Below, piece after piece: positions 1,189-45,119 of a DNA stretch of 64,000 nt. Position numbers and translations under genes: made by a program. Under the pieces are notes generated by a model that saw only the letters and a program-made list of their open reading frames with translations, did not search any database and was not told the origin of the DNA. Position 1 is the first letter of the stretch, and every line of letters begins with the position of its first letter. Origin of the DNA: Cellvibrio sp. KY-YJ-3 (lineage in GTDB: Bacteria; Pseudomonadota; Gammaproteobacteria; Pseudomonadales; Cellvibrionaceae); contig NZ_CP031727.1 of NCBI RefSeq assembly GCF_008806955.1, forward strand, positions 372,001 to 436,000. The letters are read 5' to 3'.

Positions 1189-1283
1189 ACTATCCCTCAT
1201 AACAAGTTGAAAAACATTCTCATTAAACGAGAAAACGCAGCAAAAATCAACTTGCGGATTAATCCGTTACGCACAATAAAAAT

Positions 1284-42630: not shown

Positions 42631-42695
42631 AAGGCCCGCAGTAAACGGAAAATTTGAACACAACATCCGACAACAATAATGGAGAGTCGCACTGT

Positions 42696-42983
42696 ATGAC
42701 AGCCTGTCAAAGTGAGTTATTACAGTTAAAGAATCTGGGCGTAGCATCGGTCAATATCCTCCGCGCAATAGGGATTAATACCCACGCGGATCTCAAGCGT
42801 CTGGGGGCAGTAGAAACTTATCGCCGCATTCGCGCCCGCAATATTAATGTATCCAAAGTCATGCTCTACGCCCTTGAGGGTGCACTGATGGATATTCACT
42901 GGAACGACATTCCCCCTGACCTTAAAGCCCGCTTGGTGCAAGAAGCCGAACAACCCGACGAGCTAACTCACGCCACCGCATAA
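42696..42983 (+). CDS. TfoX/Sxy C-terminal domain protein
   Basis: 95 residues that make up only the TfoX C-terminal domain: LKNLGVASVNILRAIGINTHADLKRLGAVETYRRIR ... MLYALEGALMDIHWNDIP. This helix-hairpin-helix-like module is fused to an N-terminal domain in full Sxy competence regulators; the stand-alone form is common in proteobacteria and its role is not settled. Start at ATG 42696 with GGAG 11 bases upstream; a TTG at 42654 is possible. A terminator follows directly. Confidence 0.9.
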   Translation: MTACQSELLQLKNLGVASVNILRAIGINTHADLKRLGAVETYRRIRARNINVSKVMLYALEGALMDIHWNDIPPDLKARLVQEAEQPDELTHATA

Positions 42984-43090: not shown

Positions 43091-43885
43091 ATGTACCTTT
43101 CAACCAAACAATCCGAATTAATGTCCGAGCTGGCCGCCAAACTGGGTGCGCTGACTGAACTCATCTGCATACCAGTAACACCGGCTGAGGAGCCTTTTCG
43201 GGTCGCCGCGAGCGATGACATTTTTGCCGATATCGCCCCCACCCGCCTGTTGCGCCTCATGGAAGGTCAGGTCGATTATTACCTGCAGGGCAAGCTGGTC
43301 ATGCATTTTGAGGCGGGCGACCTGCTCGGATTACCGCGCTCACTGAACTTGCCGCAAGGCCAATTCAGCTGCAGCAGTCCGGTGGAACTAGTGGCCTACG
43401 AACGCGACGCGCTGGTCGAGCAGGCCAACAGCGACCTGAAATACCAGCGCAATTGGACTTACTTTTTGGTCTGCTCCATCAGCTACTTTGAGCAGGCACT
43501 CACCCAGGAACTACGCGGTGAATTCCAACCTGCCGCTGGTTTTTTACACTTCCGCAGCGGTGAAACCATTATCCAGCAAGGCGATACCGCAGATCAGGTA
43601 TATACCCTGCTGGAGGGTTCCGCCAAGGCGGTATGCGATGGTGTCACTGTGGGGCAGATCCACCCGAACGAAATTTTTGGCGCCCTCGCCGTATTCACTC
43701 GCCAACCACGGATGGCTTCGGTGGTGGCGACCAGTGATTGCACTGTACTGGCGGTACGCAAAGAGGAGTTTATCGCCTTGATTGAGCATCAACCCCAGAT
43801 TTGCCTGGGGCTTATCGAGGAAATGGCCGCCAAAATTAACCAGCTAAATAGCCAGTTGCTGCAACTCAAAAGCCCGGAACTTTAA
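43091..43885 (+). CDS. Cyclic-nucleotide-binding domain protein without DNA-binding domain
   Basis: 264 residues. The C-terminal half is a clear CRP-like cNMP domain (GETIIQQGDTADQVYTLLEGSAKAV...IHPNEIFGALAVFTRQPRMASVVATSDCTVLAV). The N-terminal half (LLRLMEGQVDYYLQGKLVMHFEAGDLLGLPRSL) looks like a second, worn cNMP-like beta roll. No helix-turn-helix follows, so the protein is a sensor or adaptor rather than a transcription factor. Ligand unknown; the usual phosphate-binding R is present (PRMASV). Confidence 0.82.
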   Translation: MYLSTKQSELMSELAAKLGALTELICIPVTPAEEPFRVAASDDIFADIAPTRLLRLMEGQVDYYLQGKLVMHFEAGDLLGLPRSLNLPQGQFSCSSPVELVAYERDALVEQANSDLKYQRNWTYFLVCSISYFEQALTQELRGEFQPAAGFLHFRSGETIIQQGDTADQVYTLLEGSAKAVCDGVTVGQIHPNEIFGALAVFTRQPRMASVVATSDCTVLAVRKEEFIALIEHQPQICLGLIEEMAAKINQLNSQLLQLKSPEL

Positions 43886-43924
43886 AACACAACCTCACAA
43901 ACAAGAATTATTCTCAAAAAAGAC

Positions 43925-43957
43925 TTGACCGAATAAATGAGAACGATTATCGTTAAT
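43925..43957 (+). promoter_or_regulatory. Promoter overlapped by a Fur box
   Basis: TTGACC (43925-43930), 17-bp spacer, TATCGT (43948-43953). The 19 bp at 43939-43957 match 13 of 19 positions of the Fur consensus, around a perfect AACGAT-T-ATCGTT palindrome. A second, weaker AGAAT-T-ATTCT palindrome lies at 43904-43914. Iron repression of the downstream transcript is predicted. Confidence 0.6.
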
Positions 43958-43958
43958 T

Positions 43959-44126
43959 CGTTGCTGCGGATTTCTCCCCACAGCAGCTGAGCGGAATTGA
44001 TGATCGCCCTGCAAGTCGATTGTTAAAACGGCTCACCCCTTGGGACTTTCTCTGCGAGCATTTCTGCACAAGTCTCTTGGCTAACACGGTTGCTTGGGCC
44101 GCCCCTGTGGCGGCCATTTTTCTTTT
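43959..44126 (+). ncRNA. Candidate Fur-repressed small RNA (RyhB/PrrF-like by layout)
   Basis: From the predicted start near 43959 to the terminator at 44097-44126 there is a segment of about 168 nt with no open frame with a ribosome site on the plus strand. Promoter, Fur box and intrinsic terminator are in the order seen for PrrF/RyhB iron-sparing sRNAs. No sequence homology to these is claimed; the similarity is in layout. A leader of htpX is the alternative, but the strong terminator 118 bp before htpX argues against it. Confidence 0.5.
44097..44126 (+). terminator. Strong rho-independent terminator of the candidate sRNA
   Basis: A 7-bp GC stem GGCCGCC / GGCGGCC with loop CCTGT, followed by ATTTTTCTTTT. 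No annotated gene ends just before it on the plus strand (the cNMP gene ends about 210 bp upstream). Confidence 0.85.
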
Positions 44127-44243
44127 GCCGTGATTTTTTGCGATTCTTAACCTGCCGCGATTGAAATAATCCCTCCCTGCACACATATACTCCCCCGACG
44201 CTGCGTATAAACCAGCGCATCAACTTCTATGGGAGATCCTATC

Positions 44244-45119
44244 GTGTTACGTATTGGCTTGTTTCTGTTAACGAACATCGCGGTTCTGGTTGTTGCCGGC
44301 ATTGTGCTCAGCCTTTTGGGTGTAGGCAGCTATCGCACAGCAGGTGGACTGGATTTGCAGAACCTGCTGGTATTCTGTGCGGTCTTTGGTTTTGTCGGCT
44401 CCTTTATCTCGCTGTTCATTTCCAAGTGGATGGCAAAAAAGACCATGGGCGTGCAATTGATTGACCAACCCCGCAATGCCGATGAGCAATGGCTGGTTGA
44501 TACCGTGGTAGAGCTGTCGCAAAAAGCGGGCATTAAAACCCCGGAAATCGGTGTATTCCCCGCACAGGAATCCAATGCCTTTGCCACCGGTTGGAACCGC
44601 AACGCGGCACTGGTGGCGGTGAGCCTTGGCCTGCTGCAACGCTTTGAGCGCGACGAAGTGAAAGCGGTGTTAGCGCACGAAATCGGTCACGTTGCCAATG
44701 GCGATATGATTACTCTCAGCCTAATCCAGGGTGTGGTGAACACCTTTGTGATGTTCTTTGCGCGCATCATTGGCGACTTTGTCGACCGTGTATTGCTCAA
44801 GAATGAAAGCGGCCGTGGCTTTGGTTTTATGATCGCCACCTTTGTCGCTGAAATCGTACTGGGTGTTTTAGCCTCGATGATTGTGGCGGCCTTCTCCCGC
44901 TACCGTGAATTCCGTGCCGACCACGCCGGTGCTACCTTAGCGGATCGCGGTGCCATGATTCGCGCCTTACAACGCTTGCAAGCTGAAAGCGGCGCCGGTG
45001 CAGAAAGCCAAATGCCAAGCAGCATGCGCGCCTTTGGTATCAGCGGTGGTATGCGCAGCCTATTTGCCAGCCACCCACCGCTGGAAGCGCGTATCCAAGC
45101 CCTGCGCGACGCCGCCTAA
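44244..45119 (+). CDS. htpX: Membrane zinc metalloprotease HtpX (GTG start)
   Basis: 291 residues from GTG 44244, preceded by GGGAG; the ATG at 44229 lacks an RBS and adds residues not seen in the family. Two N-terminal membrane spans, zinc motif H-E-I-G-H at about 145-149, two more hydrophobic segments, and a third ligand Glu in [12 protein letters not shown]. HtpX degrades damaged inner-membrane proteins together with FtsH. A DegP-like protease gene follows by 16 bp, a membrane quality-control pair. Confidence 0.95.

Follow-up and report, generated by a model that had tools for sequence, protein, structure and literature searches.

The interval between a cNMP-binding-domain gene and htpX in this Cellvibrio genome (4.49 Mb) raises the question of whether it encodes a small RNA of its own and, if it does, whether that RNA shares ancestry with the PrrF RNAs of Pseudomonas or only their layout. 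The initial annotation of the window (the whole stretch of 64,000 nucleotides that was analyzed) had proposed a Fur-regulated small RNA arranged like RyhB and PrrF. Conservation, synteny and covariation give good support to this proposal, read as a free-standing small-RNA gene; its transcription, its response to iron and the binding of Fur are predictions. We consider positions 43959–44126 to be a diverged PrrF-type iron-sparing RNA, orthologous to Pseudomonas prrF, with a probability of roughly 0.87.

Promoter, terminator and neighboring genes

The genes around the RNA are all on the plus strand, in the order TfoX_C, cNMP, RNA, htpX. The outermost conserved neighbor is a TfoX_C-domain gene (42654–42983; PF04994, E = 7e-27), and the gene immediately 5' of the RNA has a cNMP-binding domain (43091–43885; PF00027, E = 2e-22). 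The predicted RNA, of about 165 nt, occupies 43959–44126 on the evidence of Rfam, body-only models and conservation, with its 5' end placed from the −10 element. Its 3' neighbor, htpX (44229–45119; PF01435, E = 6e-35), lies outside the RNA unit. No plus-strand ORF of at least 40 aa is found in the interval that runs from the stop codon of the cNMP gene (43885) to the listed start of htpX (44229). Scanning the window with Rfam at its own cut-offs gave no match, and a tRNA search of the window found none.

The promoter (43925–43953, plus strand) consists of a −35 element, TTGACC, at 43925–43930 and a −10 element, TATCGT, at 43948–43953, separated by a 17-nt spacer. It matches at 9 of 12 positions and is conserved in the alignment; taken alone, it is at the level of chance (1 found versus a mean of 0.9 in shuffles). 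Overlapping Fur-box-like sites span 43933–43957 at a conserved position and were scored against a 19-mer that we take to be the Fur consensus. The site at 43933–43951 matches 13/19, and the second site at 43939–43957 is better at 14/19, the sole site of at least 14/19 among 63,982 window positions, 13 of which score 13/19. It is this conserved site, the best in the window, that would place a Fur box over the promoter. The palindrome AACGATTATCGTT, with its perfect core, is at 43942–43954, and a second palindrome, AAGAATTATTCTC, lies upstream at 43903–43915; the latter matches the Fur 19-mer at 11/19, has similar counterparts in relatives and is possibly a second Fur site. At the other end, an intrinsic terminator (44097–44126, plus strand) comprises a stem of seven G-C pairs at 44097–44115 and a T-tract, ATTTTTCTTTT, at 44116–44126, with two overlapping sites found versus a mean of 1.2 in shuffles. 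The 168-nt fold has z = −2.34 (5 of 200 shuffles fold at least as well). The initial annotation had listed the promoter pair with its spacing, the 13/19 Fur box, both palindromes, the GC stem with its T-tract and the lack of an intervening plus-strand ORF, and each was recovered. A further Fur-like match is located at window positions 1208–1227 (13/19, or 11/14 in the 7-1-7 form).

Conservation, structure and loss of the RNA

Conservation and covariance analysis of 43959–44126, suggested earlier as a check, bore out the proposal of an RNA gene. In one alignment, 14 further genomes (13 from the genus and 1 from another genus of the family) preserve the whole array, promoter through terminator, and it is because of this conservation that we regard the gene as real, composition by itself being insufficient. 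DNA similarity to the RNA locus was detected in 16 of 57 relatives, 15 of these being among the 21 genomes of the genus, its own included. The 15 aligned sequences hardly differ in CCTGCAAG, the core or the terminator. The fold comprises a 5' hairpin, SL1 (43960–43987), in which 43960–43966 pairs with 43981–43987, a second hairpin, SL2 (43997–44026), with the loop CCCUGCAAGU at 44007–44016, and the terminator. Bases are paired in 91.8% of alignment cells for SL1 (two pairs changed on both sides), 96.7% for SL2 (4 of 6 pairs) and 99.0% for the terminator (two pairs), giving 95.9% for the three together, with 8 of 20 pairs changed on both sides. Covariation is above that of all 500 shuffles by four of five measures, the fifth, which counts further pair types, being reached by 65 of the 500, and every slid version of the structure scores lower; the structure scored was drawn from one aligned sequence. 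RNAalifold, unaided, recovers parts of the SL1, SL2 and terminator helices. The core of the window RNA is predicted to be mostly paired.

These substitutions bear on whether the region instead encodes a small protein, on one strand or the other, for which a 77-codon minus-strand ORF (43953–44186) could be cited. Over the aligned region the longest stop-free stretches measure 24–55 codons on the minus strand and 39–55 on the plus strand, the RNAs vary from 149 to 180 nt by differences that are not multiples of three, and the changes follow base pairing. The small protein was rejected, and we give it hardly any weight.

Two models, R1 (Cellvibrio) and R2 (Pseudomonas-type), were restricted to the RNA body to exclude matches carried by the promoter. 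R1 was positive in 36 of 144 genomes of the family and in 15 of 21 in the genus. The six genus genomes that had no R1 match were also negative at their cNMP loci with filters off. Five of these six RNA-less loci have htpX directly after cNMP, preceded by a similar promoter-like motif; the sixth (G020) ends before htpX. Because htpX directly follows cNMP in the five readable RNA-less genomes, the RNA is considered a separate unit. The corresponding motif in the window, GATTGAAATAATCC...CACATATA (TTGAAA...CACATATA; 44159–44189, plus strand), is probably a separate promoter for htpX and, at a guess, perhaps one of the heat-shock type. The position of the RNA, shortly 5' of htpX and in the same orientation, would also fit a leader, attenuator or promoter region belonging to that gene, but this reading has a very low probability and was rejected in view of the RNA's own terminator and of the RNA-less htpX loci with their promoter-like motif. 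In addition, relatives in the order adjoin other genes; among the 30 order-wide PrrF loci L018–L047, htpX was seen at a single one, L042, which belongs to Cellvibrio's family. One of the 15 R1-positive genomes, G011 (L015), has a remnant between cNMP and htpX, in which the Fur box and core are gone and what is left is the terminator end plus a changed version of the upstream palindrome.

Relationship to PrrF

The Rfam PrrF model (RF00444) aligns end to end with 43925–44124 at 27.2 bits (E = 0.016), the best hit when 43800–44350 was searched with weak matches shown. Because this score is below the curated cut-off of 90 bits, the RNA is filed as a PrrF-type homolog and not as a member of RF00444. 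The PrrF model detected 15 of 20 related loci at E ≤ 1, with scores of 29–63 bits, and the sole hit other than PrrF at the 20 loci was to one IRES model. Across the order, 58 of 293 genomes had a PrrF match at E ≤ 0.1. Twelve were above the cut-off, all in one family that is taken as Pseudomonadaceae; 0 of 14 control genomes had a match, and in the stricter order-wide search the window's own genome had none.

The body-only models match in both directions. Of the 12 PrrF loci above the cut-off, R1 finds 8 (E ≤ 0.12) and misses 4; a spurious R1 match on the opposite strand of the window has E = 0.26. R2 finds 24 of 30 RNA-carrying loci at the right place and on the right strand, misses 6 and has no match (0/7) among the loci that lack an intact RNA; two off-place matches have E = 0.74 and 3.8. 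R2 E values form a gradient, from 3e-10 to 6e-9 in L074–L077 through 7e-6 to 0.014 in L062–L069 and 0.002–0.056 in L070–L073, to 0.003–0.25 at the 8 of 14 loci matched within the genus. In the window, R2 scores 14.7 bits (E = 0.001 for a 2.6-kb search), with a runner-up at 0.23. These matches show that the PrrF-type homology of the RNA body is independent of the promoter. The core, GGCUAACACGGUUG at 44079–44092 (plus strand), is complementary to the sodB and acnB starts and in the alignment is the same as that of PrrF minus one U; the U of GGCUAAUCACGGUU is missing in the window and in most members of the genus, and the core is complete in the other genera read. At this position U is absent in most Cellvibrio (GGCUAA-CACGG), C is found in G012 and G016, and U in the remaining genera read.

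Gene order provides a further connection. A relative of the cNMP gene (31–36% identity) is directly upstream on the same strand at 18 of the 30 loci L018–L047, including 8 of the 12 above the cut-off, and TfoX_C is present at 13 of the 18. The other four above-cut-off loci (L018–L021) lack cNMP, and each of their genomes has another above-cut-off match elsewhere. PA4704, we presume, encodes the cAMP-binding protein CbpA. The tag of P. aeruginosa prrF1 is PA4704.1 (PMC5358918, PMC5870498), and the order TfoX_C, cNMP, RNA is shared with this type of prrF locus. The window RNA thus has in common with PrrF1 and PrrF2 of Pseudomonas a Fur-box promoter, the core GGCUAA(U)CACGGUU, a terminator and upstream cNMP and TfoX_C genes, but differs in scoring far below the cut-off, in having one U fewer in the core, in the added SL2 and in the downstream htpX. 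P. aeruginosa has two copies in tandem, whereas a single match was found in the window's genome (G000); a single PrrF match is also listed for several above-cut-off genomes, and a tandem pair is not a defining trait. Tandem PrrF matches in two other families of the order, five in L038 (G290 C3:1547549-1548839) and three in L045 (G136 C8:352239-352926), represent repeated expansion of the RNA gene.

A Fur-controlled RNA that evolved independently and resembles PrrF in layout only, as RyhB does, would account for the score far under the Rfam cut-off and for the 5' two thirds of the window RNA, which differ from Pseudomonas PrrF. It would not be expected to show the two-way body-only matches, the bridging genera, the shared core and upstream genes or the continuous alignment through the intermediates L074–L077 and L062–L069. 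We rejected independent origin as improbable on the basis of body-only homology and synteny. The statement in the initial annotation that no sequence homology to PrrF was seen is contradicted by the end-to-end Rfam alignment, the reciprocal matches and the prrF-like gene order. By way of synteny and bridging sequences, the window RNA extends PrrF-type RNAs past the genomes that pass the Rfam cut-off, and the regulator seems older and more changeable than the database entry shows. RyhB of enterobacteria, a Fur-repressed RNA that lowers iron-using proteins, works alike, as described in part of PMC2851614, but the Rfam RyhB model has no match to the window RNA (E ≤ 5, 551 bases searched). Two further RNAs, ArrF (Azotobacter vinelandii) and NrrF (Neisseria meningitidis), are described as iron-repressed homologs of PrrF (PMC2851614). 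A literature search, with most subscription journals outside its reach, found no title on PrrF in Cellvibrio; a 2026 paper concerns complementarity between PrrF and brnD across Pseudomonas species (PMC13104616, in part).

Complementarity to the sodB, acnB and sdhC leaders

In the proposed mechanism, Fe-Fur would cover the −10 element and repress the RNA when iron is plentiful. In iron-starved cells, transcription would produce an RNA of about 165 nt and stop at its own terminator. Its core, CACGGUU(G), probably with Hfq, would pair over the sodB ribosome-binding region and the GUG start of acnB, and the SL2 loop would pair with the sdhCDAB mRNA at its predicted 5' end, the outcome being less of the iron-containing enzymes. 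We infer transcription, control by Fur, use of Hfq and target repression from the DNA sequence. The hfq gene was found in the window genome, and pairing of PrrF2 with antR is described as Hfq-assisted (PMC5501646, in part). Known PrrF targets include sdhCDAB and acnB (PMC2851614, in part) and sodB (PMC13104616, in part); complementary sites in all three are present in the window genome too. The targets sodB, sdh and acn were taken from the list in the initial annotation, which had suggested a search of their leaders, before their sequences were viewed, and the search found complementary sites of 8 nt (sodB), 7 nt (acnB) and 14 nt (sdhC). The background consisted of 349 leaders, with approximate starts from a simple script based on ORFs and ribosome sites. 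Because duplex energies of the whole RNA failed to separate targets from background (178/349 leaders were as low as sdhC and 334/349 as low as sodB), contiguous complementarity was used. When any part of the whole RNA was allowed, 77/349 leaders had a complement of 8 nt.

The sodB sequence CAACCGUG, at −24 to −17 over the ribosome-binding region, is complementary to CACGGUUG in 11 of the 12 RNA-bearing genus genomes with a readable leader, G012 being without it; AAUUAGGAG comes next in 7 of these 11 genomes, and variants of it in the other 4. Using the 14-nt core and leaders from −30 to +10, 1/349 background leaders had a complement as long or longer, and with a looser setting (the 26-nt stretch around the core, leaders from −110 to +30) 10/349 equaled the sodB match. 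Among RNA-less genomes, (A)ACCGUG is kept in 2 of 5 read and absent in 3. Outside the RNA, CAACCGTG-N0-4-TTAG occurs at four places, of which the sodB leader alone precedes a gene start, the others being inside frames. Four sodB leaders (G002, G011, G016 and G020) were left out as a fragment, a misread start or another SOD type. For acnB, AACC-GUG, 7 nt that include the start codon, is present in all 12 RNA-bearing genus genomes read, and 2/349 background leaders have a core complement at least as long. The RNA-less genus genomes have ACT- or ATT-GUG (5/5 read), with G-U pairs still possible, and the remnant-bearing G011 keeps AACC; G006 (not read) and G010 and G002 (no match) were left out. 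Across the order, the acnB start context varies in both groups and is no marker of the presence of PrrF.

In the sdhC leader, GCGCGACUUGCAGGGCG comes after a TATAAT, some 100 nt ahead of the GUG start codon, and the 5' end of the mRNA is predicted to lie within a few bases of GCGCGACUUGCAGG. The SL2 stretch 44005–44018 is a perfect 14-nt complement of this predicted end. No background leader reaches 14 nt (0/349; maximum 12 for the whole RNA and 10 for the SL2 stretch) and neither do shuffled RNAs against sdhC (0/3000; maximum 13). In all 20 genomes computed with this loop type, the element is the longest perfect complement of the whole leader, at 14 nt in 10, 11 nt in 7 from another genus, 11 in G018, 9 in G016 and 8 in G012; in G123 the match is 8 nt, with an additional base on both sides. 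G011 and G020 (no match) were left out, and G010, whose start was missed in the 20-genome count, has the same element, seen separately. When the RNA lacks the loop, the longest sdhC match in G352–G354 is CAACCGUGA, 9 nt formed by the core and the start codon, and in G033 and G398–G400 it is 7–9 nt at the start or at −35. The start-codon match in the window genome is unremarkable (141/349 leaders in the wide setting and 10/349 with the 14-nt core and −30 to +10).

Whether SL2 pairs with sdhC at all is evenly balanced. A PrrF-type RNA whose SL2 does not bind sdhC, the complementarity being of other origin and sdhC being regulated through its start codon or not at all, is about as probable as one in which it does. 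Such a reading would fit the distribution of the element: of the 21 genus genomes, 18 have the 13-mer CGCGACTTGCAGG beside sdhC, including four that are RNA-less, and the element is also present in genera with a loopless RNA. The element must therefore have a different origin or go further back in time. Part of the element is also predicted to be paired, and swapped pairs are sometimes equal to or better than the native ones, co-change being favored for G000, G018 and G123 but not for G012, G023 and G341. Against it stand the 14-nt length that leaders and shuffles do not attain, the loop as the longest complement throughout the 20 genomes and the extra base on both sides in G123. A fuller scenario, to which we give slightly less than even odds, is that in Cellvibrio and near relatives the PrrF RNA gained a second antisense device, a covarying hairpin with a near-invariant loop that binds the extreme 5' end of sdhCDAB by up to 14 bp and has partly co-changed with it, and that in another genus of the family it is instead the ancestral core that pairs, with the start codon of sdhC. 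In that case a single RNA would have retained its target but moved to a different site on it from one genus to the next, providing a natural series for the rewiring of small RNA targets. The diverged homologs, natural losses and lineage-specific hairpin together form a test set, in harmless saprophytes, for the evolution of sdhC, sodB and acnB pairing. The second copy of the 13-mer in the window genome is inside a coding frame. In sdhC leaders such as that of L113, GCGCGACTTGCAGG comes right after TATAAT, about 100 nt before GTG, and its conservation extends to genomes that lack the RNA or the loop.
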